Assembly: GCF_005144885.1 (NCBI RefSeq)
Contig: NZ_CP039690.1
Span: forward strand, 2,989,001 to 3,053,000
Length of the DNA stretch: 64,000 nt
Source of the DNA: Phreatobacter stygius
GTDB taxonomy: Bacteria > Pseudomonadota > Alphaproteobacteria > Rhizobiales > Phreatobacteraceae
Reading direction: 5' to 3'
The notes beneath the pieces were generated by a model. That model ran no database searches, was not told the origin of the DNA, and saw only the letters and a list, made by a program, of their open reading frames with translations. Below are positions 3,004 to 34,294 of the stretch, one piece after another. A program made the position numbers and the translations under genes. Position 1 is the stretch's first letter. The number at the start of each line of letters is the position of its first letter.

Positions 3004-4188
3004 ATGTCCGATATCGTTCTCGTCATCGCTGGCCGGCCGATCGCAGCGGGCGAAGTCGTGCTCGCGCTGCTCGGCCTTGCGGTCGTTCTGCTGCTGGTCA
3101 TGTTCGTCGCCCTGCGCCGGCAGGCGGCGACCCGCGCGATGGAGGCCGAACGCGCCATCATCCACGCCCAGGAGCTCGAGGAGCGCATGGGCGAGATGAA
3201 TCGCGCCCAGTCCGAGATGACCGGCCGGATGCAGGCCATGGTCGAGGGCCTGCATGCCCGCCAGTTCGACCTGTCGAAATCGCTCGGCGAGCGGCTCGAC
3301 GGCATGAGCACCCGGCTCGGCCTGTCGCTGGAGGGCCAGACCCGCACGACGGTTGAAAATCTCGGCAAGCTGAACGAGCGCCTGGCGGTGATCGATTCGG
3401 CGCAGAAGAACCTGACCGACCTCGCCGGCCAGGTGGTGTCGCTGAAGGACGTGCTGGCCAACAAGCAGGCCCGCGGCGCCTTCGGCCAGGGCCGGATGGA
3501 GGCGATCCTCCAGGACGGCCTGCCGCGCAACGGTTATGAGCTGCAGCCGACGCTCACGTCAGGCAAGCGCCCCGACGCGATGATCCGGCTCGCCGGCGAT
3601 CCGCGCGGCCTGGTCGTCGACGCCAAGTTCCCGCTCGAATCGATCACGCTCTGGCGCGAAGCCAAGGCCGAGGAATTGCGCCGTATGGCGGCCCAGCGCC
3701 TGCGCCAGGACCTCGCGGTGCATGTGAAGGACATTTCCGAGAAATACCTGATCCCGGGCGAGACCCAGGAGGTGGCGCTGATGTTCGTGCCCTCCGAAGG
3801 CATCTATGCCGACCTGCACGAACATTTCGACGACGTCATGCAGAAGGCCTTCCGGGCCCGCGTCATGGTGGTCTCGCCGTCGCTGCTGATGCTGGCCGTG
3901 CAGGTGGTGCAGGGCCTGCTGAAGGACGAGCGCATGCGCGACGAGGCCCGCGTCATCCAGAAGGAGGTCAGCCTCCTGCTCGACGACGTCTCGCGCCTGT
4001 CCGACCGGGTCTTGAACCTGCAGCGCCATTTCGGCCAGGCCCATGACGACCTCGGCCAGATCCTGACCTCAGCCGACAAGATCGCCAAGCGCGGCGGTCG
4101 CATCGAAGCGCTTGAATTCGACGAGCCGCCGGCTTCGGCCGAGGCCCTGGCCAAGCTGCCGCTCAAGGGCTCGCTCGCGGCGGAGTAA
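3004..4188 (+). CDS. rmuC: DNA recombination protein RmuC
   Basis: A 394-residue protein with an N-terminal transmembrane segment (about residues 10-35), a long coiled coil (about 38-150) and the RmuC nuclease-like core, including RGAFGQGRMEAIL and DAKFPLES. E. coli RmuC limits inversion at short inverted repeats, and RmuC proteins are thought to act as structure-specific nucleases. Length and domain order are typical. The gene converges on the unknown gene at 4202 with only a 13-bp gap, marking the left boundary of the accessory zone. Confidence 0.95.
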   Translation: MSDIVLVIAGRPIAAGEVVLALLGLAVVLLLVMFVALRRQAATRAMEAERAIIHAQELEERMGEMNRAQSEMTGRMQAMVEGLHARQFDLSKSLGERLDGMSTRLGLSLEGQTRTTVENLGKLNERLAVIDSAQKNLTDLAGQVVSLKDVLANKQARGAFGQGRMEAILQDGLPRNGYELQPTLTSGKRPDAMIRLAGDPRGLVVDAKFPLESITLWREAKAEELRRMAAQRLRQDLAVHVKDISEKYLIPGETQEVALMFVPSEGIYADLHEHFDDVMQKAFRARVMVVSPSLLMLAVQVVQGLLKDERMRDEARVIQKEVSLLLDDVSRLSDRVLNLQRHFGQAHDDLGQILTSADKIAKRGGRIEALEFDEPPASAEALAKLPLKGSLAAE

Positions 4189-4201
4189 GCGTTAGTTCGC
4201 T

Positions 4202-4966
4202 TTATTCTTTTCGAAAAAGATCGGGCTGGCGTCCCTCGTCTTTCGTTCCGTCCGTTTCGTCTGGACGGGTGACAGAATCCCTATGCCGTTCGACAAGAAG
4301 CTTGCGCACTAGGTCTCTGGCCAAGATGAACTTCTCGACATCCTCCCGGAGTTCACTATCCGTCAAAAGCTGATAGTCCCCCCTCATCCACAACTCAGAA
4401 TCCCGCTCTCCCTCTTTCGATTTAGGAAAGAAAAGCATCTCTCCTGGGCTGTTTTGAAAGTCAGTGAGCGAAAAGTACGCGTCCTCGTAGATCGTAACTA
4501 ACAATCTGCGCTGCCGAGTCGTGAGCGGGAGTTTCGACCAGCCGCAGAGAAACACGGGTACAATCTGGCGCTCCTCAACGATAACGGACAACGCCTCAAC
4601 CGGCACAAGAATGTCGCGCGAGACGCGAAAATACTCTCGTGCGGATTGCATCGGATTTCGTGCCGAGTAGCGACGATCTTGATCGTATTCAAAGAATGCT
4701 CTTACAAGCGAGGAATTACTTCCTCGGCCGGCCGGCGCTCCTGAACGATCAACAGCTGTCAAGCCATCCCGAAGTGATATTCCAAGTTCTATTCTATCTT
4801 TGCAAACTCTAGCAGCCGGTTGATAGGTGAACGGTGGAATCGCTCGTATCCAGCGAAGTATGGCTTTCGCGGTCGAGTGCTCATCATCCCCGATAAAGCG
4901 GACCCAGTTCGGGGCGGATGGAGGTTTATCAAGCTTCGCAAGAATCTTGCTGATAGAGGAATCCAT
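4202..4966 (-). CDS. Unknown protein, candidate partner (toxin?) of Panacea-domain protein
   Basis: I do not recognise this 254-residue soluble protein. It has no signal peptide or membrane segment. Features seen are an N-terminal MDSSISKIL stretch, a charged middle with EYDQDRRYSARNP, and a hydrophilic tail rich in D, E and R ending QPDLFRKE. Its ATG overlaps the stop of the Panacea gene as TAATG, so the two are almost certainly translationally coupled. Base composition and codon use are AT-richer than the surrounding genes. In PanAT systems the gene paired with a Panacea antitoxin is often a toxin of unrelated fold; that role here is inference from context only. Confidence 0.75.
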   Translation of the reverse strand: MDSSISKILAKLDKPPSAPNWVRFIGDDEHSTAKAILRWIRAIPPFTYQPAARVCKDRIELGISLRDGLTAVDRSGAPAGRGSNSSLVRAFFEYDQDRRYSARNPMQSAREYFRVSRDILVPVEALSVIVEERQIVPVFLCGWSKLPLTTRQRRLLVTIYEDAYFSLTDFQNSPGEMLFFPKSKEGERDSELWMRGDYQLLTDSELREDVEKFILARDLVRKLLVERHRDSVTRPDETDGTKDEGRQPDLFRKE

Positions 4967-5454
4967 TAGTGTCTCGCGGCGCTATTGAACCAACTGCGAA
5001 TCGAATCGTCACTAATGCGCATAGTAGGATTAGACAGCGTATCATAATTCCAGGTTCTGTCCCACGGACCATCTTTCTCATGTGAAAGAGCCACAAGGGC
5101 GGCGGCCGATAGTCGAATATACCTGGGCAGTATCTGGTCGATAAGATTACGGTCCGATAGTGCGATATCGGGCGCGTCAATAGTTCCCAATCCGGTATTT
5201 AAATCAATCTTGCGCGCGCGCGTTGATATTGGCTTGTCTTTATGAATTCTGAATTCACGATATATTTCGCGAAAGACGGGACCATGCTCCCAAGCTTCGA
5301 TCTTTGCTGTAATAAGAGGTTTATTTGATTCGACCACAAAATGAGCGTGTAGAAAATATATAAGCTTGTTAATAGCAATATTAGTCAGCGGGACGTGAAG
5401 CTTGTCAGCGACATCCAATATGTAGTTTGCAATATCGCGAACGTCGTACGTCAT
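4966..5454 (-). CDS. Panacea domain protein (DUF4065/SocA-like), candidate antitoxin
   Basis: A 162-residue Panacea-domain protein. Diagnostic parts are the start YDVRDIANYILDVA, the stretch INKLIYFLHAHF, the motif EAWEHGPVFREIYREF and the C-terminal LSHEKDGPWDRTWN. Panacea domains serve as antitoxins in PanAT pairs, as SocA proteolytic adaptor in Caulobacter, and occur in mobile-element proteins. The gene is the upstream member of a coupled pair and the DNA is clearly AT-richer than its neighbours, a sign of horizontal transfer. The domain assignment is strong; the antitoxin role is inferred. Confidence 0.88.
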   Translation of the reverse strand: MTYDVRDIANYILDVADKLHVPLTNIAINKLIYFLHAHFVVESNKPLITAKIEAWEHGPVFREIYREFRIHKDKPISTRARKIDLNTGLGTIDAPDIALSDRNLIDQILPRYIRLSAAALVALSHEKDGPWDRTWNYDTLSNPTMRISDDSIRSWFNSAARH

Positions 5455-6024
5455 GGTCTTGGAATCAAAGCATATTCATGATTTGTTCACAAGAAGCATC
5501 GGGGCTACTATCCCCAGTAGCCTCTGCGGAACTCACCTCAGGCACGGTAAATGCCGCAGATTTTCGTAGCTGACTCTCCGCAGGTTTTCCTACGATAGCT
5601 GGCTGGCGGCGGAGAAGTGCCCGATCACGTCGCCCGGCCGATTGCGCACACCAAGCCCTCACGATCTGCGCGACGGTCTCGGCGACCGGCATCCGGCGAT
5701 CAAAGTCTGCGAGCAGCACGGCGCCTTGCCATTGGGCTGCCCTCCGAGCCTGCCGCGTATCGGCGCGAGGGCCACAGGTCTCGCGCGACCTGATCGACGG
5801 CGATGCGGTGCCGTGCCGCAGCGACAAAACGGCGCTATGGCGTCCGACATCGATCGGTTTGGCCGTTTCCATCATTGCGATCGTTCGGAATTGGCGCACG
5901 CCGCCTGCGCCGAATACCGATTTCGTGTTGCCGGCAGCGCCCCTAGGCTATCGGCCAAGATCGTGCGATCGATGCGATCAGCAATCAGAAAACCGACGCA
6001 CTTGACGTCTGGGAGGGAATGGGA
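5455..6024. other. Intergenic stretch with tetR remnant and permease leader
   Basis: About 570 bp without an intact gene. The left part is AT-rich leader DNA of the Panacea gene. The middle holds a TetR C-terminal remnant, listed separately. The right part leads into the permease and ends with the Shine-Dalgarno GGGAGG at 6011-6016. The long open frame on the minus strand across it (5465-5899) is explained by the remnant plus chance. Confidence 0.6.
5624..5776 (-). pseudogene. TetR-family regulator C-terminal remnant
   Basis: Translating the minus strand gives AQWQGAVLLADFDRRMPVAE and then RAWCAQSAGRR, which closely match AQWQGAVLLAGFDRRRPVAE and KAWCRAIGRQ in the intact TetR at 14265-14831. 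DNA similarity is also evident, for example AGCACGGCGCCTTGCCATTG in both. No DNA-binding domain is present, so this is a 3' fragment of a tetR gene. It lies on the opposite side of the barbiturate cluster from the intact copy and in the same orientation. Confidence 0.8.
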
Positions 6025-7389
6025 ATGGGAACGTCGGATCGTGTTCATCCAGTTGACGAAGTGCTGCCGCTTCCGAAAATGTTCGCGTTGGGGCTCCAGC
6101 ACGTCCTGGTCATGTATGCCAGCGCAATAACAATTCCGCTCATCATCGGCTCCGCGCTCAAATTGCCGAGAGAGGACATCGCCCTGCTGATCAGCGCGGA
6201 TCTGTTTACCTGCGGTATCGTCACTATTCTGCAAAGTGTCGGTATCTGGGGCATCGGCATCCGCCTTCCCGTCATCATGGGTGTGACCTTTATTGCCGTC
6301 GGACCGATGCTTGCCATCGGCGCCAATCCGGAACTGGGCCTGCTCGGCATCTTCGGCTCGGCACTCGCCGCCGGCCTGATCGGCTTCCTGATCGCGCCGC
6401 TCGTCGGCCGGTTGCTGCCGCTGTTCCCCTCCGTCGTGACCGGGATCGTCATCCTGATGATCGGCATTTCGCTGATGCGGGTTGGCATCAATTGGGCCGG
6501 CGGCGGCCTGGACAATCCGAATTTCGGCAAGCCGCTCTATCTCGGCATGACCGCCATGCTGCTCCTGCTGATGCTCGCCATCGTCAAGTTCGGACGCGGC
6601 TTCATGGTCAATCTGGCGGTCCTGCTCGGCATCATCGTCGGCTTTCTCGCCGCGATCCCGCTCGGCGAGGTCAATTTTGCTGGCCTGGGCGAGGCCAAGT
6701 GGGTCGCCGTGATCACGCCATTCCAGTTCGGCTGGCCGAAATTCGACTTCTGGGCCATCGCCACCATGACCACTGCGATGCTGGTGGTGTTCATCGAATC
6801 GACCGGTGTCTTCCTGGGGCTCGGCCAGCTCACCGGCAAGCCGATCGGCGAGCGCGAGATCACCCGCGGCCTGCGGGCCGATGGCCTGGGCGCCAGCATC
6901 GGCGCGGTCTTCAACACGTTCCCCTACACGACCTTCTCGCAGAACATGGGATTGGTCGCGCTGACCGGCGTGCGCAGCCGCTGGGTGACGGCAACCGCCG
7001 GCGTCATTCTCATTGTCCTCGGCCTGGTGCCGAAAATGGGCCATGTCATTGCCGCCGTGCCGCTGTTCGTGCTTGGCGCCGCCGGCATCTTGATGTTCGG
7101 ACTGATCGTCGCCACCGGCATCAAGGTCCTGTCCGCGGTCGACTACACAAATAACAAATACAATCTGTATATTGTGGCGATCTCGGTCGCCGTCGGCATG
7201 ATCCCGCTGGTCTCGCCCGGCTTCTTCAAGCACATGCCGAAAGAACTGGCGCCGCTCCTGCACAGCGGGATCCTGATCTCGGCGATCACCGCGGTTGCTC
7301 TCAATCTGATCCTGAATGGTCTGCGCCGGGCCGAGGATGCCCGGGCCGAAGCTGTCGCGTCGATGATGAAGGCCGATACGCCGCACTGA
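6025..7389 (+). CDS. NCS2-family nucleobase permease (uracil/xanthine type)
   Basis: Inner-membrane nucleobase:cation symporter with 12-14 hydrophobic segments. The family signature QNMGLVALTGVRSR appears in the C-terminal third, and the conserved QH of the first helix is in GLQHVLVMYAS. There are about 454 residues from the ATG at 6025, which is 8 nt after GGGAGG; the ATG at 6019 is too close to that ribosome binding site. It is the first gene of the barbiturate cluster, so the cargo is predicted to be barbiturate or a related pyrimidine. Specificity cannot be read from sequence, and xanthine or uric acid remain possible. Confidence 0.92.
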   Translation: MGTSDRVHPVDEVLPLPKMFALGLQHVLVMYASAITIPLIIGSALKLPREDIALLISADLFTCGIVTILQSVGIWGIGIRLPVIMGVTFIAVGPMLAIGANPELGLLGIFGSALAAGLIGFLIAPLVGRLLPLFPSVVTGIVILMIGISLMRVGINWAGGGLDNPNFGKPLYLGMTAMLLLLMLAIVKFGRGFMVNLAVLLGIIVGFLAAIPLGEVNFAGLGEAKWVAVITPFQFGWPKFDFWAIATMTTAMLVVFIESTGVFLGLGQLTGKPIGEREITRGLRADGLGASIGAVFNTFPYTTFSQNMGLVALTGVRSRWVTATAGVILIVLGLVPKMGHVIAAVPLFVLGAAGILMFGLIVATGIKVLSAVDYTNNKYNLYIVAISVAVGMIPLVSPGFFKHMPKELAPLLHSGILISAITAVALNLILNGLRRAEDARAEAVASMMKADTPH

Positions 7390-7390
7390 T

Positions 7391-7429
7391 CCGGGGTGCC
7401 GACCGCGATATTGTTCGCGTCGGCCCCGG
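7391..7429 (+). terminator. Hairpin after permease gene
   Basis: Starts 2 nt after the permease stop. Arms CCGGGG-T-GCCGA-C-CGCGA and TCGCG-TCGGC-CCCGG pair with two single-base bulges around the loop TATTGT. No U-tract follows, so it may be a terminator without U-run or an mRNA-stabilising stem that separates permease from lysR. Confidence 0.5.
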
Positions 7430-7474
7430 GGTGTAGGTCTGCGGTTGCGGTCCTCCGAATTCGACATGTGCAAT

Positions 7475-7502
7475 GCCAGCTACAGAGGCCGCTGTAGCTG
7501 GC
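7475..7502. promoter_or_regulatory. Perfect 11-bp inverted repeat upstream of lysR
   Basis: GCCAGCTACAG, spacer AGGCCG, then CTGTAGCTGGC. It ends 22 bp before the lysR ATG and is not followed by a U-tract. Position and symmetry suggest a LysR autoregulatory site or a hairpin in the lysR leader. Confidence 0.5.
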
Positions 7503-7524
7503 GTTTCATTGATTGCGCGGCCCC

Positions 7525-8484
7525 ATGCGTTTCGACCTCTTCGACCTGCAGCTTTTCGTGGCGATCGCCGAAGCCGGCAATCTCACGCAGGCGTCCAACA
7601 AGCTGCATATCGTGCCCTCCGCATCGAGCGCGCGGATCAAGCAGCTCGAAGACAGTTTCGGCGTGCGCCTGTTCCACCGTGCGAGCACCGGCCTCAGCCT
7701 GACGCCGGCCGGGCAGGCCATGCTGTTTCATGCCCGGCGCATCCTGCTTCGGGCCAACCGGATGCGCGACGAACTGTCCGAGTTCTCGCGCGGGCTCCAG
7801 GGTGTGGTTCGCATCTTCTCGATTTCGATCGGCGCGACCGTCTATCTGCCCAAGGCGCTGAGCAGCTTCCTGACCAAACATGCGCAGGTCTCGGTCGAGA
7901 TCGAGGAACATATCAGCGACGACATCATTCGCGCCGTGCGCGAATATCGGGCCGATATCGGCATTATCGGCGGCAAGTTCGCGGTCGACGAATTGCAGAT
8001 CTTCCCCTATGCGAACGAACGCCTGGTCGTTCTCGCCTCCGTCGACCATCCGATCTGCGCGCGGCCGGACATCTCGTTTGAGGAAGCGCTCGATCTCGAC
8101 TTCATCGGGCTCAATCCGCACAACACCTTGAACCTGTTCCTGATCCGTCAGGCCAACCAGGTCGGCAAGACGTTCCGCACGCGCGCGCTGGTCCGCGGCC
8201 CCTATGAGGCGAGCGCCATGGTGGTCGGCAATGCCGGCATTACCATCGTCGAGGAATCGGTGGCGCGGCAGTGCGCGCTGACCATGCCGCTCCGCGCGAT
8301 CCCGCTGTCGGACCCCTGGGCGCTGCGCGAGATGCAGATCTGCGTCCGGAATCTCGGCGAGTTGCCGCCCTTCGCGCGTGATCTGGTCGCGATGCTGCGG
8401 GCCGACGGAACCTCCTTGACGCCGGCTTCCGCTGGCGCTGCGGCTCCTTCGCCGATTTCGAATGCGCCATCCGGAATTGACTGA
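7525..8484 (+). CDS. LysR-family transcriptional regulator of the barbiturate cluster
   Basis: A 319-residue LysR regulator. The winged helix-turn-helix lies at about residues 1-60 (MRFDLFDLQLFVAIAEAG start, then ARIKQLEDSFGVRLFHR), with an effector-binding domain at about 90-300. The ATG at 7525 fits the family N-terminus; the TTG at 7513 would add four atypical residues. Unusually for LysR, the gene is codirectional with its presumed targets: it sits between the permease and the hydrolase. Likely effectors are barbiturate or malonate pathway intermediates (inference). Confidence 0.93.
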   Translation: MRFDLFDLQLFVAIAEAGNLTQASNKLHIVPSASSARIKQLEDSFGVRLFHRASTGLSLTPAGQAMLFHARRILLRANRMRDELSEFSRGLQGVVRIFSISIGATVYLPKALSSFLTKHAQVSVEIEEHISDDIIRAVREYRADIGIIGGKFAVDELQIFPYANERLVVLASVDHPICARPDISFEEALDLDFIGLNPHNTLNLFLIRQANQVGKTFRTRALVRGPYEASAMVVGNAGITIVEESVARQCALTMPLRAIPLSDPWALREMQICVRNLGELPPFARDLVAMLRADGTSLTPASAGAAAPSPISNAPSGID

Positions 8485-8586
8485 TGGCGAGGCGCAAGGC
8501 TCTTCCATAGCGTCCCCGGCAACGGTCGGGTGGTTCTGATGCGCGCATGCGCTTCACCCGGCACAGGCTTTACCGGGAGAAACGTG

Positions 8587-9681
8587 ATGGCCATCGAAGT
8601 TGCCAAGATCGAGATCAAAAGCGTCGCCGATGCCGCCGGGCTGGCCGATTGCATCCGGGGCGGCGGCATGGCCGCCAATGAGGTGGTCGCGGTGATCGGC
8701 AAGACCGAAGGCAATGGCGGCGTCAACGACTTCACCCGCATTCTGGCCGACCAGGCCTTCCGCGGCGTTCTGATGAAGCACGGCACGCGGAGCGAGGCCG
8801 AGATCCATCAGATTCCGATGGTCTGGTCGGGTGGCTGCGATGGCGTCATCACGCCGCATGCCACTGTCTTCGCGCGCAACGGCCAGACCGGCACGGCCGG
8901 CAAGTCGCGCCTCGTCATGGGCGTGGCGATGAGCCCGAAGATCCTGCCCGAAGATATCGGCCGGCCGGCCATGGTGGAAAAGATCGCCGAAGGCGTGCGC
9001 ATGGCGATGAAGGATGCCGGCATCACCAATCCGGCGGATGTCCACTATGTCCAGACCAAGACGCCGCTCCTGACCATCGACACCATCCAGGACGCCCATC
9101 GCCGCGGTCACGACGCGTTCTGCGAAGTGCATGAATCGATGGGTGTCTCGAACGGCACCACCGGGCTCGGCATTGCGGTAGCCCTCGGCGAAGTCGCCAG
9201 ATACCGGGCCGAAGACATTTGCCGGAACCTCGATCTCTATTCCTCGGTCGCGTCCTGCTCGTCGGGCGTCGAGCTCGACTGTGGCCAGATCGTCCTGTTC
9301 GGCAACAAGGACGGTGCCGGCGGCCGCTATCGCATCGGCCATAGCGTGATGAAGGACGCGCTCGATATCGACGGCATTTACGATGCCATCCGCAATGCCG
9401 GCCTCGAACTGCCGGAGCGGCCACGCGCCGCCGATCTCAACGGCAAGCTGGTCAACTGCTTCATCAAGTGTGAGGCCGACCGCACCGCGAAATTGCGCGG
9501 CCGCCGGCAGATCATGCTCGACGATTCCGATGTGCACCATCATCGCCACGCCAAGGGTGCGGTCGGCGGCGTGGCGGCGGCGGCGATCGGCGATGCGGCG
9601 GTGTTCGTCTCGGTCGATGCCATGCACCAGGGGCCGCAGGGTGGCGGACCGGTCATCGCCATCGTTGACGTCGGCGAATAA
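8587..9681 (+). CDS. Ring-opening amidohydrolase, barbiturase (cyanuric acid hydrolase family)
   Basis: A 364-residue member of the barbiturase/cyanuric acid hydrolase family, built from three similar domains. The three Ser-Lys pairs of the family can be placed: Lys39 (GKTEGNGG), Ser81 (WSGGCDG), Lys158 (QTKTPLL), Ser226 (SCSSGVEL), Lys294 (IKCEADR) and Ser342 (VSVDAMHQG). The ATG at 8587 follows the ribosome binding site GGGAGA; upstream in-frame starts lack one. The family opens either barbiturate (to ureidomalonate) or cyanurate. The presence of malonyl-CoA synthetase and decarboxylase downstream argues for barbiturate; reading alone cannot exclude cyanurate. Confidence 0.9.
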
Positions 9682-9730
9682 TCGACGCGTCCCGGCGCGT
9701 TCCCTCCTTGAACCCCTGTGGTCGAGACCG

Positions 9731-11146
9731 ATGAGCATCAACAGCGACATTGCGGCACTGGCGGCGCGGCACCAGGCCGACCTGATCCGCGCCGGGGAGA
9801 TCAGCGCGGTCGAGGTGCTGGATGCCGCCCTGGCGCGCATCGAGAAGCTCAATCCGAAGCTGAACGCGATCGTGACCCTGCTCGAAGGCCAGGCCCGCGC
9901 CGCCGCGCTCCAGGCCGACCAGGCGGTTCGCGCCGGCGAGCCGCTCGGCCTGCTGCACGGCCTGCCGCTGGTGGTGAAGGACGTGACCGACGTCGCCGCG
10001 GTGCCGACCACCTATGGATCACCCCTGTTCCGCGACAATGTCGCGGAACAGGATGCCGAAGTGATTGCCCGCCTGCGCCGGGCCGGCGCGATCTTTCTCG
10101 GCAAGACCAACACGCCGGAATTCGCCACCGGCGCCAATACCGTCAACGACCTGTTCGGCGCCACGCTGAACCCGTGGAATCCCGAACTCAGCCCGGCCGG
10201 GTCTTCCGGCGGATCGGCGGTGGCGGTGGCGACCGGCATGGCGCCGCTGGCGCAGGGCACCGACTTTGGCTGCTCGATCCGCATTCCCGCATCCTTCTGC
10301 GGCATTGTTGGCCTCAGGACGACGCCCGGGCTGATCCCGAACGACCCGATGAATCTCTATTGGGATCCTGGCCAGGTTCACGGTCCGATGGCCCGCTCGG
10401 CCGAGGATGCCGCCTTGATGCTCGACGCCATGACCGGCTTCGATCCTTACTGGCCGATTTCGATCGCGCCGTCCTGGACGAGCGCCCTCGATGTGGTTTC
10501 GCGCACCGAGGACGCCAGGGGGCTGAAGATCGCCTATGCGCCGGACATTGCCGGTATCGGCGTCGATGCCGAGGTCGACCAGATCTGCCGCCAGGCCGCC
10601 CGGCGGCTGTCGCGCCATGGCGCCGAGGTCGACGAGATCGACTTCGATGTCTCCGAGGGCCGCGAGGCCTATATGACCTGGCGCGGCGAATGGATGATCG
10701 GGCAGCGGCTGCAACAGCTCGACCTGATCGATCGCTTCGGGCCGAACCTCGCCGGCAATCTCAAGGCCGGGCTTCAGATCGACGCGCTCGACCGGGCGGA
10801 TGGCCAGCATGTCCGTCAGGCGGTGTGGCGCAAGTACCGGGCGCTGCTGACACGATACGACTACCTCGTCACGCCGGCCGCGCCCGTGCCGCCCTATCCG
10901 GTGTCGCAGAATTTCCCGGATCGCATCGGCGGCAAGCAGCTCGAGAACTATGTCGACTGGATTGCCGGCGCCTATCTCGTCACGCTGGTCGGATTTCCGG
11001 CGGGCTCGGTGCCCGCTGGCCTGACCGCCAGCCGGCTGCCGGTCGGCCTGCAGATCATCGGCCGCCGGCTCGCCGACGCCAATATCCTTGGTCTCGCAAA
11101 GCTTGTCGCTGCCGACAGCGCGATCGGTTCGCCACCGGCGAATTGA
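9731..11146 (+). CDS. Amidase-signature hydrolase, candidate ureidomalonase
   Basis: A 471-residue amidase-signature enzyme with the full Ser-cisSer-Lys triad: Lys83 (VVKDV), a cis-serine at 158/159 (AGSSGGSAVAVATG) and the nucleophile Ser182 (TDFGCSIRIPASFCG). It starts 49 bp after the barbiturase gene. In the known oxidative pyrimidine pathway, ureidomalonase cleaves ureidomalonate to malonate plus urea or its breakdown products. Position next to barbiturase and just before malonate-activating genes supports that role. Biuret or allophanate hydrolase (AtzE/AtzF-like) is the main alternative. A perfect 29-bp palindrome lies within the gene at 10024-10052. Confidence 0.85.
   Translation: MSINSDIAALAARHQADLIRAGEISAVEVLDAALARIEKLNPKLNAIVTLLEGQARAAALQADQAVRAGEPLGLLHGLPLVVKDVTDVAAVPTTYGSPLFRDNVAEQDAEVIARLRRAGAIFLGKTNTPEFATGANTVNDLFGATLNPWNPELSPAGSSGGSAVAVATGMAPLAQGTDFGCSIRIPASFCGIVGLRTTPGLIPNDPMNLYWDPGQVHGPMARSAEDAALMLDAMTGFDPYWPISIAPSWTSALDVVSRTEDARGLKIAYAPDIAGIGVDAEVDQICRQAARRLSRHGAEVDEIDFDVSEGREAYMTWRGEWMIGQRLQQLDLIDRFGPNLAGNLKAGLQIDALDRADGQHVRQAVWRKYRALLTRYDYLVTPAAPVPPYPVSQNFPDRIGGKQLENYVDWIAGAYLVTLVGFPAGSVPAGLTASRLPVGLQIIGRRLADANILGLAKLVAADSAIGSPPAN
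10024..10052. repeat. Perfect 14-bp inverted repeat inside the amidase gene
   Basis: CCTGTTCCGCGACA, one base, then TGTCGCGGAACAGG. It encodes LFRDNVAEQD of the amidase, a segment before the catalytic serines. The mRNA would form a very stable stem with almost no loop, so as DNA it behaves as a cruciform-type palindrome. Confidence 0.7.
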
Positions 11147-11223
11147 ACCGTCGACGCCGCGCCGGCGGCGGTCGCCAGGTCACGACGAGGCGCTGGGCCA
11201 GGCCGCCATCATCAGGCGCTGAC

Positions 11224-11240
11224 GGCCCGCCCGGCGGGCC
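11224..11240. repeat. Palindrome in amidase-decarboxylase gap
   Basis: GGCCCGCC-C-GGCGGGCC, an 8-bp inverted repeat with a 1-nt centre, sits in the 129-bp gap (11147-11275) before the malonyl-CoA decarboxylase gene. It could be an operator or a site of mRNA processing. No U-tract follows. Confidence 0.4.
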
Positions 11241-11275
11241 ATCGAACGCCGCTGCTTGCCGCTCACCAGGAGGCG

Positions 11276-12670
11276 ATGATGAAACCGCTGAAGTCGAGGA
11301 CCTCGGATGTCACGCCCGTCTTCGTCAGCGAGCTGATCGAGACGCTGACCCGGCGCGGCCTGGCGCTGTTCGGCCGCAGGGACGCCAGGGGGGAGGTGGC
11401 GCAGGCGCGCGATCTGGCGGCACTCGGCGAGCTGCTTCTGTCGCGCCGCGGCGAGGCGTCCGGCGTCACGCTGGCCGAGACCCTGCTGGCCGCCTTCGCC
11501 GCGGCAAGCGCGGCCGAGCGCCTGACCTTCCTGCTGGCGCTGGCGGACCGCTTCGGCCCGGACCCTGCCGCGGTTCAGCGCGCGATCGCCGCTGTCCTTG
11601 ACATCTCCGAAACCGGCGCCCTGGAAAAACTGCATGCGGCGTCCGAGCCGCGCCGTCAGGCGCTGTTCAGGCGGCTGAACCTTGCGCCAGGCGGCACCAC
11701 CGCGCTGCTGCGCATGCGCGAGGACCTGCTCGGACACCTGTCCGACCATCCCCGGCTGAAGCTGGTCGACGACGATTTCGTCCATCTGTTCTCGTCCTGG
11801 TTCAATCGCGGCTTCCTCGCGCTTCGGCGCATCGACTGGACGACGTCGCCGAACATCCTGGAACGGATCATCCGCTACGAGGCGGTCCATGCCATCCGGG
11901 ACTGGGACGATCTGCGCAACCGGCTCGCCCCGGAAGATCGGCGCTGTTACGGCTTCTTCCACCCGCAACTGGTCGACGAGCCCCTGATCTTCGTCGAGGT
12001 CGCGCTGACCAGGGACATCCCGCCGGCGGTCGGCCCCCTGCTCGATCTGGCCCGGACGCCAATCGCCGCGGCCGAGGCGACGACGGCGGTGTTCTATTCG
12101 ATCTCGAACACGCAGCGCGGCCTCGGAAGCGTTTCCTTCGGCAATTTCCTGATCAAGCAGGTCGTCGAAGACCTGAAACGCGAACTGCCCAATGTGAAGA
12201 CGTCGGTCACGCTGTCGCCGGTGCCCGGCTTCGCCTCCTGGCTGGCGGGGCAACGGAAAGCCGAGGTCGCCTGGCTCGACGCGGCGACACAGGCGGAACT
12301 TGGCCTCGTCGACGAGCACGGTTGGCATGCCGATGCCGGCAAGGCCGAGCGGGTGCGCGCGGTGCTGCTGCCCATTGCCGTGCGCTACTTGCTCGCGGCC
12401 AAGACCGCAGGCGGGCGTCCGGTCGATCCGGTGGCGCGCTTTCATCTGGGCAATGGCGCCCGGCTCGAACGGCTCAATTTCCTTGGCGACGTGTCGGCCA
12501 AGGGCCTGAAACAATCCCACGGGCTGATGGTCAACTATCTCTATGCGCTCGACGAAATCGAGGTGAACCACGAAGCCTTCGCCGAGAAGGGCGTCATTGC
12601 GGCCGCGCCGGCCGTGCGCCAGCTGGCGCCTGCCGACAAATCCTCTCGAAGCACCGTCCCGGCGCCGTGA
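11276..12670 (+). CDS. Malonyl-CoA decarboxylase (cluster copy)
   Basis: Converts malonyl-CoA to acetyl-CoA and CO2. It has 464 residues with an N-terminal helical domain and a C-terminal GNAT-like catalytic domain. The conserved VTLSPVPGF and VARFHLGNGARLERLN carry the serine and histidine thought to be catalytic in the family. The ribosome binding site AGGAGG directly precedes the ATG at 11276. It corresponds to MatA of rhizobial mat operons and lies just before a MatB-like synthetase. A second, divergent paralogue occurs at 32966-34294. Confidence 0.95.
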   Translation: MMKPLKSRTSDVTPVFVSELIETLTRRGLALFGRRDARGEVAQARDLAALGELLLSRRGEASGVTLAETLLAAFAAASAAERLTFLLALADRFGPDPAAVQRAIAAVLDISETGALEKLHAASEPRRQALFRRLNLAPGGTTALLRMREDLLGHLSDHPRLKLVDDDFVHLFSSWFNRGFLALRRIDWTTSPNILERIIRYEAVHAIRDWDDLRNRLAPEDRRCYGFFHPQLVDEPLIFVEVALTRDIPPAVGPLLDLARTPIAAAEATTAVFYSISNTQRGLGSVSFGNFLIKQVVEDLKRELPNVKTSVTLSPVPGFASWLAGQRKAEVAWLDAATQAELGLVDEHGWHADAGKAERVRAVLLPIAVRYLLAAKTAGGRPVDPVARFHLGNGARLERLNFLGDVSAKGLKQSHGLMVNYLYALDEIEVNHEAFAEKGVIAAAPAVRQLAPADKSSRSTVPAP

Positions 12671-12724
12671 TCGGCAGCTTGTCTCGACCCCTGTCCCCCT
12701 CTAACGGCCCCTTTTCCAGGTGCG

Positions 12725-14242
12725 ATGCCCATGACCGCCAACCTGTTCGACCGCCTGTGCGGAACCGTCGCCGATCCCGCCAAGATCGCCGTGGAAACGG
12801 CGAGCGGTGGGCGCGTCTCCTATGCCGCTCTTGTCGCCTGGTCCGGGCGCATGGCGAATGCGCTCGTCGCGCGCGGGCTGAAGCCGGGCGATCGCGTGGC
12901 GGTCCAGGTCGAGAAGTCCCTGGCGGCCCTCGTCGTCTATCTGGCAACCATTCGCGCCGGCGGTGTGTTCCTGCCGCTCAACACCGCCTATACCCCGGCC
13001 GAGATCGACTATTTTCTGAGCGATTCCGAGCCGGTGGTCTTCGTCTGCGATCCGGCGAGCCAGGCCGATCTGCAGCCGATCGCCGCCCGGGTGGGCGCCG
13101 CGCTTTTCACGCTCGATGCCGCGGGGCAGGGCAGTCTCGCCGGCGCGGCGCAAGGCGCGCCGGCGGATTTTGCGACGGTCACGCGGGAGCCGCACGATCT
13201 CGCCGCGATGCTTTACACCTCGGGCACGACCGGGCGCGCGAAGGGCGCCATGCTGTCGCACGACAATCTTGCCTCGAATGCCGAGGCGCTCAGGCAAGCC
13301 TGGCGTTTCAGCGCTGGCGACGTGCTGATCCATGCGCTGCCGATCTTCCACACCCATGGGCTGTTCGTCGCCTCGAACATCGCGCTGCTGTCAGGTGCAT
13401 CCATGGTCCTGCTGCCGAAATTCGACGTCGACCAGATCTTCGGTGTGATGGCGCGCGCCACCTGCCTGATGGGCGTGCCGACCTTCTATGTCCGCCTGCT
13501 GAAGGACGCGCGGCTGACACCGGCAGCGACGAAGCACATGCGGCTGTTCGTCTCCGGCTCGGCGCCGCTGCTGGCCGAAACCCATCGGGACTGGCAGGGC
13601 CGGACCGGCCACGCGATCCTCGAGCGTTATGGCATGACCGAAACCAACATGATCACGTCGAACCCTTATGACGGCGAGCGGCTGCCCGGCACCGTCGGCC
13701 TGCCCTTGGCCGGGGTCGATGTCAGGATCACCGCTCCGGAGGGCGGCGGGGAACTGGCGCGGGGCGAGATCGGCATGATCGAGATCAAGGGTCGCAACGT
13801 GTTTCGAGGTTACTGGCGCATGCCCGAGAAGACCGCGGCTGAATTCCGCGACGATGGTTTCTTCATCTCCGGCGATCTCGGCCGGATCGACCAACGCGGT
13901 TATCTCCATATCGTCGGACGCGGCAAGGATCTCATCATCACCGGCGGCTACAACGTCTACCCGAAGGAGGTCGAGGGCGAGATCGACGGCATTCCGGGCG
14001 TGGTGGAAAGCGCGGTCATTGGTTTGCCCCATCGCGATTTCGGCGAGGCGGTGACCGCCGTCGTGGTCGCCGGCACGGCGGCCGCGCTGACGGAAGCGGC
14101 GATCCTGGACGCGCTCCGGCCGAGGCTTGCCCGCTACAAGCTGCCGAAGCGCGTGATCTTCAGTGCCGATCTGCCGCGCAACGCCATGGGCAAGGTGCAG
14201 AAGAACCTGCTGCGCAGCGCCCATGACGGGCTCTACGGCTGA
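12725..14242 (+). CDS. Malonyl-CoA synthetase (MatB-like)
   Basis: An AMP-forming acyl-CoA synthetase of 505 residues. The P-loop TSGTTGRAKGAMLSH, the YGMTET motif, the hinge GRGKDLIITGGYNVYPKEVE and the C-terminal catalytic lysine region NAMGKVQKN are all present. Overall similarity to MatB and its place directly after a malonyl-CoA decarboxylase make malonate the likely substrate. It would activate malonate released by the amidase. An ATG at 12731 is an alternative start. This is the last gene of the cluster; it ends 22 bp from the convergent tetR. Confidence 0.92.
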   Translation: MPMTANLFDRLCGTVADPAKIAVETASGGRVSYAALVAWSGRMANALVARGLKPGDRVAVQVEKSLAALVVYLATIRAGGVFLPLNTAYTPAEIDYFLSDSEPVVFVCDPASQADLQPIAARVGAALFTLDAAGQGSLAGAAQGAPADFATVTREPHDLAAMLYTSGTTGRAKGAMLSHDNLASNAEALRQAWRFSAGDVLIHALPIFHTHGLFVASNIALLSGASMVLLPKFDVDQIFGVMARATCLMGVPTFYVRLLKDARLTPAATKHMRLFVSGSAPLLAETHRDWQGRTGHAILERYGMTETNMITSNPYDGERLPGTVGLPLAGVDVRITAPEGGGELARGEIGMIEIKGRNVFRGYWRMPEKTAAEFRDDGFFISGDLGRIDQRGYLHIVGRGKDLIITGGYNVYPKEVEGEIDGIPGVVESAVIGLPHRDFGEAVTAVVVAGTAAALTEAAILDALRPRLARYKLPKRVIFSADLPRNAMGKVQKNLLRSAHDGLYG

Positions 14243-14264
14243 GGCCGGCATCGGCCGGCCCGGG

Positions 14265-14831
14265 TCAGGCCTGACGCCCGATCGCCCGGCACCAGGCCTT
14301 GAGGTCCGCTTCGACGGTTTCGGCGACCGGCCTGCGGCGGTCGAAGCCGGCGAGTAGCACGGCGCCTTGCCATTGCGCCACCATCAGCCGTCCGAGATCG
14401 GGCCGCGGACCCGCTGCATCGCCGAGGCAGTCGCCGAGGATCGTCGCGATGGTCTCGAACCAGGCGACGCCGCGCTGGCGGAGCGCCGGATCGATCAGGT
14501 CCTCGCGCAACACCAGCAGCCCGTCGGCATAGTCGTCGCCATCGCCATAACCGCCCGACAGCGCCACCAGCCAGGCGACCGCGCCTGCGGGGTTGCGCGT
14601 CACCGTGGCGCCTTCGGCCGCGGTGCGCACCTCGAGCGCGCTCCAGGCATGGGCAAGGGTCGCTTCGAGCAGGCCGGCCTTGCTGCCGAAACGCTGCACC
14701 AGGGTTGCCGGAGAAAGTCCGATCTCGGCGGTCAGCGCCGCGAAGCTGACGCCCTCCGGCCCGGCCCGGCGCATCAGCACGAGGGCCTGGTCGAGCACGA
14801 TCTGGTCGGGGATGGAACGCGGACGGGCCAT
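14265..14831 (-). CDS. TetR-family regulator
   Basis: A 188-residue TetR regulator. The helix-turn-helix is in the first 50 residues (FAALTAEIGLSPATLVQRFG), with a ligand domain after it. The start MARPRSIPD at 14831 fits the family; the upstream ATG at 14882 would overlap the operator. It diverges from the DHFR-like gene with a palindrome between them, so it probably represses both. Its 3' third is duplicated as a remnant at 5624-5776. Confidence 0.93.
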   Translation of the reverse strand: MARPRSIPDQIVLDQALVLMRRAGPEGVSFAALTAEIGLSPATLVQRFGSKAGLLEATLAHAWSALEVRTAAEGATVTRNPAGAVAWLVALSGGYGDGDDYADGLLVLREDLIDPALRQRGVAWFETIATILGDCLGDAAGPRPDLGRLMVAQWQGAVLLAGFDRRRPVAETVEADLKAWCRAIGRQA

Positions 14832-14845
14832 GGTTGCTCTATTGT

Positions 14846-14861
14846 AAATGAACGTTCGTTT
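14846..14861. promoter_or_regulatory. Probable TetR operator
   Basis: AAATGAACGTTCGTTT is a near-perfect palindrome (one mismatch) centred on AACGTT. It lies in the 71-bp gap between the divergent tetR and DHFR-like genes. The half-site resembles the AACGAACG/ATGAACG sites of many TetR regulators. Confidence 0.75.
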
Positions 14862-14902
14862 ATATATGGCGCAGAACGCCATTCAACAGGAGACCTGAAG
14901 CC

Positions 14903-15442
14903 ATGGCCCGCATCCTCGGCTATGTCGGCATGAGCGTCGACGGCTATATCGCGTCACCCGACGGCACGCTCGACTGGCTGCGCAAATACGACACGATCGA
15001 TTTCGGCCCATTCGCCTTCGAGACGTTCCTCGAGGGCATCCGCACCATCGTCATGGGGCGGGCAACCTATGACGTGGTCGCCGATCATCCCGGGCCATGG
15101 GCCTATGCCGGCAAGCGTGTCTTCGTGGTGACGTCGCGGCCCATCGACCGGCCGATCGGCGATGTCGAGCTCTGGACCGGCGGTATCGACGCGCTGGTCG
15201 GCCACCTGCGCGCGCTCGATGACGGCGATGTCTGGATGGTCGGCGGCGGGCTTCTGCAGCAGGCCTTCATCGCCTGCGGCGCCCTCGACCAGCTCGAGCT
15301 CTATGTCGTGCCCGAGATCGTCGGGGCCGGCATTCCCTTGTTTCCGGCCAACGGCTTTTCGCGCAGCATCAAGCTCGTCTCGACCGACGTGCTGCCGGAG
15401 GGGTGTGTCAGACTGTTCTACGAATTCGGGGCAACCGCCTGA
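14903..15442 (+). CDS. Dihydrofolate reductase-family (RibD C-terminal) protein
   Basis: A 179-residue protein with the RibD-C/DHFR-like fold. It opens ILGYVGMSVDGYIASPDG, contains the MGRATYD segment, and has the nucleotide-binding VWMVGGG in the second half. The family binds NADPH, but most members have no known substrate. The ribosome binding site AGGAGA precedes the ATG. It is divergent from and probably controlled by the TetR gene. Resistance or detoxification roles are guesses. Confidence 0.88.
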   Translation: MARILGYVGMSVDGYIASPDGTLDWLRKYDTIDFGPFAFETFLEGIRTIVMGRATYDVVADHPGPWAYAGKRVFVVTSRPIDRPIGDVELWTGGIDALVGHLRALDDGDVWMVGGGLLQQAFIACGALDQLELYVVPEIVGAGIPLFPANGFSRSIKLVSTDVLPEGCVRLFYEFGATA

Positions 15443-15451
15443 CCGGCGATC

Positions 15452-16597
15452 TTAGCCTTCCTTGCTGGCCAGCCCGTCCCAGAACGCCTTGGCCTTGGCG
15501 AAGAAGCCCGCGGTTTCCGGCTGGGTGTCCTTCGAGCTCTCCTTGTCGAACTCGGCGAGCAGTTCCTTCTGGCGCTTGGTCAGGTTGCGCGGGGTCTCGA
15601 CGTCGACCTGGACATAGAGGTCGCCGGTGACCTTGGAGCGCAGCACCGGCATGCCTTTGCCGGACAGGCGGAAGCGCTTGCCCGATTGGGTGCCTTCGGG
15701 AACCTTGACCTGCGCCCGGCCGCCGTCGACGGTCGGCACCTCGAAGGCGCCGCCGAGCGTGGCGGTGACCAGCGAGACCGGCGCCCGGCAATAGAGATCC
15801 TGGCCGTCGCGCTGGAAGAAGGAGTGCGGCTGGATCGACAGGAAAATATAGAGATCGCCCGACGGGCCGCCGCGGAAACCGGCCTCGCCTTCATTGGCAA
15901 GCCGGATGCGCGTGCCGTCCTCGACGCCCGCGGGGATGTTGACCGACAGGACCCGCTCCTTGGTCACCCGGCCGGCGCCGCCGCAATTGGCGCAAGGGTC
16001 TTCGATCACCTGGCCGCGGCCCTGGCAGGTCGGGCAGGTCCGTTCGATCGAGAAGAAACCCTGGCTGGCGCGCACCCGGCCGTGGCCGCCGCAGGTGCCG
16101 CAGGTCTTCGGCTTGGAGCCGGCCTTGGCGCCCGAGCCCGAACAGACCTCGCAGGTCGCGGTCGTCGGAATGCGCAGCTGGGCGGACTTGCCGTGAAAGG
16201 CTTCCTCCAGCGTGATGTCCATGTTGTAGCGAAGATCGGCGCCGCGCTCGCGGCCACCCCCGCCGCCGGCACCCCTGCGGCGGCCGCCGGCCATGCCGAA
16301 CAATTCTTCGAAGATGTCGGACATGGACGACGAGAAGTCGCCGCCGAAGCCCTGGGGCCCGCCGCCGCCATTCTCGAAAGCCTGGTGGCCGAACCGGTCA
16401 TAGGCCGCGCGCTTCTGGCCGTCGGACAAGACCTGATAGGCTTCGTTCAGTTCCTTGAACTGGTGCTCGGCTTCGGAATTGTTCGGGTTGCGGTCGGGAT
16501 GATACTGCATCGCCTTCTTGCGGAAGGCCGATTTCAGCGCGGCATCATCGGCATCGCGGCCGCATCCCAGAATGTCGTAATAGTCGCGCTTGGACAT
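15452..16597 (-). CDS. dnaJ: Chaperone protein DnaJ
   Basis: A 381-residue class I J-protein that stimulates the DnaK ATPase and holds unfolded substrates. The J domain (1-70) has the HPD motif at 33-35. A Gly/Phe- and Gly/Arg-rich linker runs about 75-120. Four CxxCxGxG zinc motifs follow ([32 protein letters not shown]), then the C-terminal substrate-binding domains. The start is 10 bp after the stop of the DUF3995 gene, so it is read with that gene and probably also from the dnaK promoter. Confidence 0.97.
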
Positions 16598-32965: not shown

Positions 32966-34294
32966 TCAGCTCTTGCTTGCGGCGAGCTTTTTCACCGCCG
33001 CGCTGGTCACCACCGCGCGCCGCTCGGCATAGGCCTCGTGGTTCTCTTCGATCCGCGGCAGGTCATAGAGATAGTTGACCATCACGCCATGGGATTGCCT
33101 GAGGCCCGAGGCCGACAGGTCGGCGCCGGGATTGATCCGCTCGAGCCTGGCGCCATTGCCGAGATGGAAACGGGCGACCGGATCGAGCGGCCGCCCGCCC
33201 GGCGATTTGGCCGCGACGAAATAGCGGGCGGCGGCGCGCGCCAGCACCCGGTCGACCCATTCGGCGGCCAGGGTGTTGGCGCGCCAGTCGGGCTTGTCCA
33301 GGAGCTGCAGCGCCTCGCGGTCTTCCGCCGCGAGCTCCGAGGGTTCGGCCTCGCGCTCCTGTTTCAGCCAGCGCGCGAAACCCGGCACCGGCGACAGCGT
33401 CACGAAGGTCGCGAGCTTCGGCAGCTCCCGTTTCAGCTCCTCCACCACCTGCTTGATCAGGAACGAGCCGAAGGAAATGCCGGCAAGCCCGTCCTGGCAG
33501 TTGGAGATCGAATAGAACACCGCCACCCGGGCCTCGTCGGCGGCCACCGGCATGCCGCCTTCGGCGATCAGCGGCCCGATCGCGCCGGGGATTTCGGTGG
33601 TTAGCGCCACCTCGACGAAGATCAGCGGCTCGTCGTCGAGCTGGGGATGGAAGAAGGCATAGCAGCGCCGGTCTTCCGGCTGCAGCCTGCGGCGCAGGTC
33701 GTCCCAGTCCCTGATCGCGTGGACCGCCTCGTAGCGGATGATCTTTTCCAGGATATTGGCCGGCGTCGACCAGTCGATGCGCCGGACCACCAGGAAACCG
33801 CGATTGAACCAGGATGAGAACAGGTGGACGAGATCGCTGTCGAGCACCTTCAGTTCCGGGTGGTCGGGCAGTCGTGCCAGCAGGTCCTCGCGCAGCCTGA
33901 CCAGCGACAGCGTGCCGCCCGGCGCCAGGTTGAGCCGGCGGACCAGTTCCTGGCGGCGCGGTTCGGCGGCGACATGCAGCTGGGCGGTGGCCGCGGCCGT
34001 CGGGTCGGCCTGGTAGTCGGCGATCGCCGCCTGCAGCTTGTCATGGTCGGCGGCGAAACGTTCGGCGACCGCGCCGAGCACGGCCGTGCGGCCCTTGGCG
34101 TCGAGCGCGCGATAGCTGGAAATGATGTCGCGGGCGAGCGCCACGCCCGAAGCCTCGCCCCGGCGGGACAGGAGCTGGTCGGCCAGTTGCAGGATATCGG
34201 CGGGCGAGCGCCTGGTGGTCTCCTCCGGACCCCAGCCGATCAGCTGGCGGCTGCGCCGGGTGACGGTTGCGAGCAGATCAGTCACGAAGGTCAT
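32966..34294 (-). CDS. Malonyl-CoA decarboxylase, second paralogue
   Basis: A 442-residue malonyl-CoA decarboxylase with the same landmarks as the copy at 11276: LNLAPGGTLSLVRLREDLL, HLFSSWFNRGFL, VTLSPVPGF and DPVARFHLGNGARLERIN. It is similar along its length yet diverged in the N-terminal helices and C-terminus. It stands outside any malonate cluster, so this is probably the housekeeping copy that regulates malonyl-CoA. Confidence 0.94.
   Translation of the reverse strand: MTFVTDLLATVTRRSRQLIGWGPEETTRRSPADILQLADQLLSRRGEASGVALARDIISSYRALDAKGRTAVLGAVAERFAADHDKLQAAIADYQADPTAAATAQLHVAAEPRRQELVRRLNLAPGGTLSLVRLREDLLARLPDHPELKVLDSDLVHLFSSWFNRGFLVVRRIDWSTPANILEKIIRYEAVHAIRDWDDLRRRLQPEDRRCYAFFHPQLDDEPLIFVEVALTTEIPGAIGPLIAEGGMPVAADEARVAVFYSISNCQDGLAGISFGSFLIKQVVEELKRELPKLATFVTLSPVPGFARWLKQEREAEPSELAAEDREALQLLDKPDWRANTLAAEWVDRVLARAAARYFVAAKSPGGRPLDPVARFHLGNGARLERINPGADLSASGLRQSHGVMVNYLYDLPRIEENHEAYAERRAVVTSAAVKKLAASKS

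Follow-up and report, generated by a model that had tools for sequence, protein, structure and literature searches.

The question raised by this locus is whether one short row of genes can carry barbiturate, which arises when nucleobases are broken down, from its import into the cell to acetyl-CoA. The locus lies in a window of 64,000 nucleotides, the whole stretch of DNA that was analysed, from Phreatobacter stygius (contig NZ_CP039690.1, positions 2,989,001 to 3,053,000), and it comprises six genes, all on the plus strand at window positions 6019-14242, which encode an NCS2 nucleobase permease, a LysR-family regulator, a ring-opening hydrolase of the AtzD/Bar family, an amidase-signature enzyme, a malonyl-CoA decarboxylase (MCD) and a MatB-type malonyl-CoA synthetase. 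We consider it likely that these six genes form a barbiturate-utilisation cluster. All six had been named in an earlier note made from the sequence alone, and all six are found on this strand. Each product passes its Pfam cut-off, and because the best family E-values range from 8.8e-34 (LysR, Pfam) to 9e-250 (MatB, NCBIfam), the six gene identities are not reasonably due to chance. Two details of that note need correction. The arrangement is not fused, since the genes are separate, with gaps of 123, 102, 49, 129 and 54 bases along the cluster; and the start given for it, 6025, does fall within the permease open reading frame (ORF), as its second ATG, but the ORF begins at 6019.

The route that we propose proceeds as follows. 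The permease (6019-7389; PF00860, E 2.8e-101; TIGR03173 xanthine permease, 506.8 bits against a cut-off of 414.15) would import barbiturate, and the hydrolase (8587-9681; PF09663, E 4.6e-135), to judge by its family and specificity residues, would open the ring to give ureidomalonate. The amidase (9731-11146; PF01425, E 1e-104) would then convert ureidomalonate to malonate, with release of urea or of ammonia and CO2, a role suggested by its clade and its linkage. MatB (12725-14242; NF005702 malonyl-CoA synthase, 829.3 bits against a cut-off of 558; PDB 4fuq Malonyl CoA synthetase, 757.9 bits) and MCD (11276-12670; both domains, PF05292 with E 2e-103 and PF17408; PDB 4ksa MCD, 585.6 bits) belong to their families by these matches, and the predicted flux through them would take malonate to malonyl-CoA and, by decarboxylation, malonyl-CoA to acetyl-CoA. 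The co-directional LysR gene (7513-8484, starting from TTG at 7513 or ATG at 7525; PF03466 and PF00126) probably controls the cluster, with barbiturate or malonate as the signal; no NCBIfam model exceeded its cut-off for this protein among the 25 matches listed of 55.

The ring-opening hydrolase

The Amido_AtzD_TrzD domain of the hydrolase is full length, covering profile positions 1-358 of 358 in PF09663. Its best match in the PDB is 5hwe Barbiturase with 481 bits, compared with 297 bits for the best cyanuric acid hydrolase, and it is 63% identical to 5hwe, which we take to be a Rhodococcus enzyme, and 45% identical to the cyanuric acid hydrolase 6bum. The three Ser-Lys pairs recognised in the earlier note are all present (K39/S81, K158/S223 and K294/S342), and every row with an identity of 70% or more keeps these dyads wherever it spans them. 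Five sites separate cyanuric acid hydrolase from barbiturase, and the barbiturases of group VI, as defined in 2013, carry Asn195, His321, Lys325, Val345 and either Ser or Ala at 346 in AtzD numbering (PMC3758960). Four of these specificity sites are barbiturase-like in the window hydrolase, namely N189, H319, K323 and V343. In one cyanuric acid hydrolase, the substrate-binding Arg is held by a salt bridge to the Glu of its SGGAEHQ loop (PMC6557486); both residues are absent from the window hydrolase, which has Asn189 and Met346 instead. Met occupies the Glu position in 79 of 81 complete rows, a set that counts the window hydrolase itself and, twice, L059, and the other two rows read one Leu and one Lys. 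We infer that the loss of the Arg and the loss of the Glu belong together.

Phylogenetic analysis of the hydrolases agrees with the four sites. In a tree of 58 rows, made up of every third row reading NHKVD at the five sites and all other rows, the window hydrolase groups with 5hwe and two actinobacterial relatives, L125 and L126 (100/100), although long branches between the barbiturase and cyanuric sides drew a warning from the tree program. The rows marked by Asp at the fifth site form one group of 30 rows (97/95), the sister of which is a 56% relative reading NTKVAL (L134, in genome G305). A second family member in the same genome, L117 (G000:C1:2387206-2388264), is of the RTRGGE type and falls with 6bum. 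The assignment to the barbiturase family in the earlier note is thus upheld at the level of phylogeny and of four of the five specificity sites. All 12 genomes of the genus carry at least one family member at 39-43% identity to the window hydrolase, and in the seven of the 12 in which the specificity residues were read, all carry Arg and Gly-Gly. In a plasmid collection, 132 records match the hydrolase, two at 60-80% identity and 130 below 60%.

Two features of the hydrolase weigh against a plain barbiturase. At the fifth site, 346 in AtzD numbering, it has D344 where published barbiturases have Ser or Ala, so that a related ring is possible as the substrate; and the NCBIfam model NF052395 names it a cyanuric acid amidohydrolase, with 439 bits against a cut-off of 360. 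Because D344 replaces Ser/Ala, the hydrolase lies outside strict group VI, and we place it on the barbiturase side in a distinct subclade rather than in group VI in the 2013 sense. The residues NHKVD are read in all 78 relatives that cover the five sites, out of 80, and the remaining two, which are cut off, match as far as they extend. Could the enzyme then act on another barbiturate-like ring, for example a 5-substituted one such as 5-methylbarbiturate from thymine, giving a substituted malonate that MatB would also take? The fixation of Asp344, adjoining the hydrophobic Val343, in 78 of 78 complete relatives would fit this idea, as would the hydantoinase A/B genes, of unexplained role, found no more than 8 kb from the barbiturase in 26 of 83 loci; but at the other four specificity sites the enzyme reads as a barbiturase, and the presence of an MCD in the cluster suggests plain malonyl-CoA, since methylmalonyl-CoA would be handled by a mutase. 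We regard such a substrate as unlikely, if worth some attention.

The NF052395 name raises a different reading, in which the hydrolase would act on cyanuric acid and the amidase on biuret or allophanate, with MCD and MatB as unrelated neighbours. Besides the equivalog match over its cut-off, this reading can draw on the fact that amidase-signature enzymes act in cyanuric acid catabolism, and the AtzE models do match the window amidase, below their cut-offs. The cyanuric acid operon atzDGEHF of Pseudomonas sp. ADP (PMC6219798) resembles the cluster in that it, too, pairs an amidase-signature enzyme with a ring-opening hydrolase from this fold family, but the cluster differs in its specificity residues and in carrying malonate genes in place of further atz genes. 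Cyanuric acid hydrolase is described as having two extra Arg (R194, R324) and the motif S-G-G-x-E-x-Q-G-P (PMC9118981), whereas the window hydrolase reads Asn189, Lys323 and S-V-D-A-M-H-Q at these positions, so that both Arg and the motif are absent. It groups with 5hwe in the tree, and the genome has a separate paralogue of RTRGGE type in L117. The model name itself does not discriminate the two activities, because 5hwe Barbiturase, run as a control, passes the same cut-off of 360 with 478 bits; barbiturases may be misnamed by this equivalog model. On the specificity residues and the tree we rejected the cyanuric assignment, and it appears very improbable.

The amidase and the malonate genes

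The predicted barbiturase is followed by an amidase whose closest relatives also come from barbiturase loci. The loci compared were those of 80 of 121 confirmed relatives, the other 41 lying outside the survey; with L125, L126 and L144 added, and the duplicates L116 and L143 (the same as L056) dropped, they amount to 83 distinct loci, 49 of which extend 5 kb on both flanks of the barbiturase while many end at contig edges. In a tree of 49 rows, several of them long-branched, the window amidase and 26 rows from barbiturase loci form a clade of 27 (98/98). All eight genus paralogues given to the tree, of 51 found, fall outside this clade, as do 14 other rows from loci of family hydrolases, some of them of a second, F14-like kind, others additional amidases from the same contigs, and four from beside cyanuric-type hydrolases. 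Of the 83 distinct loci, 32 have an amidase of one kind or the other within 8 kb of the barbiturase, a count in which amidases unlike the three query sequences are not detectable; the shorter F14 kind occurs in seven of these loci, in L079 beside the first kind. Among the 12 genus genomes a close amidase is found only in this one, the next best being 42% identical. The window amidase was searched from residue 13 (9767) onward, its likely ATG being at 9731, and no NCBIfam model exceeded its cut-off among the 25 matches listed of 26. Malonamidase E2 was rejected as the nearest relative; since it scores about 100 bits and the best of 56 PDB sequences 172.6 bits, no solved amidase reveals the substrate. 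The role proposed in the earlier note gains from membership in the barbiturase-linked clade, and the PF01425 fold together with this linkage leads us to predict a ureidomalonase.

The malonate genes were said to fit the route, and their distribution agrees with this. All 12 genus genomes have one core MCD and one core MatB, but a second MCD and a second MatB (E 1e-80 or better) occur in P. stygius (G000) alone, both within the cluster. The core MCD of this genome also lies in the window, as an ORF at 32966-34294 on the minus strand, and is 60% identical to the cluster copy. In other bacteria, MCD stands beside the barbiturase in four of the 80 loci (L007, L013, L016 and L018) and MatB in three (L007, L016 and L062), compared with a chance expectation of about 0.23 for each in 1.15 Mb of flanks, a rough figure that borrows the genus rate of one copy per genome and counts kin loci (L007/L016, L013/L018) separately. 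The window MCD and MatB share 57-60% and 66-67% identity with the core copies of four genus genomes, and 48-53% and 55-56% with the barbiturase-linked ones elsewhere. Judged by these identities rather than by a tree, the linkage of barbiturase with MCD or MatB seems to have arisen several times, and such repeated separate recruitment favours function over inheritance. The cluster MCD and MatB look like dedicated duplicates that were added to a barbiturase-amidase pair widespread in Proteobacteria.

The same identities allow another explanation, that the barbiturase and amidase form one unit and MCD and MatB another, independent of it, and that the two became neighbours by accident. The window MCD and MatB resemble the genus core copies more than the barbiturase-linked ones, and so seem to have joined the barbiturase-amidase pair separately; gaps of 102-129 bases would leave room for separate promoters, and a promoter and terminator scan of the cluster gave no more sites than shuffled sequences. 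But the two pairs share a strand across a junction of 129 bases, the only one of the 12 genus genomes to have the second copies is the one that carries the barbiturase, MCD or MatB stands beside the same hydrolase clade in L007/L016, L013/L018 and L062, and the chemistry of the malonate genes fits the route. An accidental neighbourhood therefore seems to us quite improbable.

Several further observations speak against a dedicated barbiturate route. The exact six-gene order, for which the earlier note had proposed a search, was absent from all 80 relatives' loci, many of which are cut by contig ends. MCD and/or MatB stands beside the barbiturase in just five of these loci, two of which, L013 and L018, have the MCD on the opposite strand. 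The comparison of amidases was made with a set to which no reference ureidomalonase sequence belonged. Two proteins of the genome pass the D-hydantoinase/dihydropyrimidinase model, and so uracil may go by the reductive route; the best of five genome matches to a barbiturase-linked molybdenum hydroxylase (L056) reaches only 39%. The cluster encodes no barbiturate-making enzyme, and six weaker matches to RutA in the genome include none over the cut-off. Barbiturate probably comes from outside the cell, and the route, which had been called complete, can be followed through predicted genes from barbiturate to acetyl-CoA but not from uracil, for which the genome has no close molybdenum hydroxylase. 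In favour of the route, the genome has a match to the urease alpha subunit, so that urea could serve as a nitrogen source.

Barbiturase loci in other bacteria

A scan of the class found matches at 1e-120 in nine of 385 genomes, including that of the window. Of the other eight, G270, G250 and G305 were seen with long flanks (L143, L144 and L145), the contig positions of G435, G343 and G521 are those of L019, L028 and L048, and the gene order of G355 and G444 lay outside the comparison. A frequent order is LysR, hydantoinase A, hydantoinase B, barbiturase, NMT1-type binding protein, ABC ATPase, permease and amidase. The hydantoinase A/B genes that 26 of the 83 loci (for example L065, L040 and L054) have at up to 8 kb from the barbiturase are mostly upstream of it, and their nearest NCBIfam model is caprolactamase, below its cut-off. 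An NCS1 or NCS2 permease is found at this distance in five of 83 loci and a molybdenum hydroxylase in 12, the latter being a candidate uracil dehydrogenase. In L069, L073, L075 and L077 the MoCoBD, Fer2_2 and FAD_binding_5 subunits stand directly upstream of the barbiturase (at 10001). In L126 a kinase accompanies the barbiturase, together with an NCS1 permease and a molybdenum hydroxylase, while L125 shows the barbiturase alone with the same queries. L051 is a contig of 3.7 kb labelled as a metagenome-assembled genome (MAG) of Klebsiella pneumoniae, a label that looks doubtful, and carries the barbiturase and an AllF homologue.

Eleven of the 83 loci (L007, L016, L022, L043, L051, L052, L059, L063, L071, L074 and L078) have an AllF homologue, an AllG homologue or both at most 8 kb from the barbiturase, and an amidase of the queried kinds was seen within 8 kb in none of these 11. 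The hypergeometric probability of this exclusion, which ignores kinship, is 0.003 for the 83 loci and 0.027 for the 49 with 5 kb flanks. L007 (9363-18130) has in one row the barbiturase, an amino-acid-kinase-family gene, AllH, AllF, AllG, MCD and MatB, and L016 likewise has the barbiturase, the kinase-family gene, AllF, AllG, MCD and MatB; the kinase-family gene is also present in L022, whose AllF homologue scores 381 bits, below the NCBIfam FdrA cut-off of 433. AllH was searched in L007 only and was found there. The kinase of L007 may be a carbamate kinase. Ureidomalonate is oxalurate with one more CH2, and since AllFGH splits oxalurate, a phosphorolytic cleavage of ureidomalonate is predicted at this locus. 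The E. coli AllFGH converts oxalurate to oxamate and carbamoyl phosphate (PMC11326118). These loci thus resemble the E. coli system in having AllF, AllG and AllH homologues and an amino-acid-kinase-family gene in L007, and AllF and/or AllG in 10 further loci, but the homologues lie outside the window and the predicted substrate is ureidomalonate rather than oxalurate. The presence of AllF/AllG without an amidase suggests a second, ATP-conserving way to cleave ureidomalonate. We therefore offer, tentatively and at a little short of even chances, the proposal that bacterial barbiturate catabolism has two interchangeable second steps, either hydrolysis by an amidase or AllFGH-type phosphorolysis (ureidomalonate + phosphate to malonamate + carbamoyl phosphate, with ATP formed via carbamate kinase), both of which would be able to end in MatB and MCD.

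Genomic site and implications

A close barbiturase is found in this genome alone among the 12 of the genus, the next best being 43% identical. The site was inspected in four of the other 11 genomes. In G007 only 16 bases separate the flanking genes rmuC and dnaJ; G003, the nearest by RmuC (93%), has 5.1 kb of other DNA between rmuC and a TetR gene, with a PLP-dependent decarboxylase and an ABC ATPase; G008 and G011 match on the rmuC side only, within the stretch compared. Since G007 and G003 differ between the flanking genes, the cluster sits in a variable site (window 4188-15458). The GC content of its genes is 0.62-0.68, compared with 0.66 for the window and 0.49 for an adjoining SocA-like pair at 4202-5454, which consists of a SocA/Panacea-like gene (PF13274 over the cut-off, NF047745 below) and a partner without a Pfam family. 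A fragment at 5622-5744 shares 77% identity with the end of the TetR gene that lies across the cluster at 14265-14882, and 82% with its G003 relative; it looks like the remnant of a second TetR copy.

In rhizobial mat genes, MatA is the decarboxylase and MatB the synthetase. The cluster shares with them an MCD that adjoins MatB for malonate use, but here the two are joined to a barbiturase and an amidase, and are second copies in the genome. Further members of the AtzD/Bar family have reportedly been described in a structure paper of 2017. The oxidative pyrimidine pathway of Rhodococcus erythropolis, with the barbiturase Bar and a ureidomalonase (PMC3758960 and PMC4051656, citing Soong 2001, 2002), is described as rare (PMC3758960). 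The cluster has in common with it the ring-opening family and the predicted route to malonate; it differs in the Asp at site 346, in the linked second MCD and MatB, and in encoding no source of barbiturate. The fate of the malonate formed by this pathway is not named in the parts of the literature found. Each step proposed here is of a known kind, and, in line with the earlier note, whose author knew of no description of the arrangement, no description of a barbiturase with malonyl-CoA genes was found in the literature searched, most subscription papers being outside its reach.

In summary, the sequences, their phylogeny and their linkage support the reading of the cluster given in the earlier note, with activities, import and regulation as predictions. 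The cluster provides a gene-level hypothesis for a route from barbiturate to acetyl-CoA, and with it a candidate sequence for the ureidomalonase step. Asp344 marks a large group of hydrolases to which a public model gives the name cyanuric acid hydrolase, and the molybdenum hydroxylases beside the barbiturase in other bacteria are candidate uracil dehydrogenases. If the two interchangeable second steps are true, the Asp-marked barbiturase clade would be a widespread and unrecognised entry of nucleobase carbon into acetyl-CoA.

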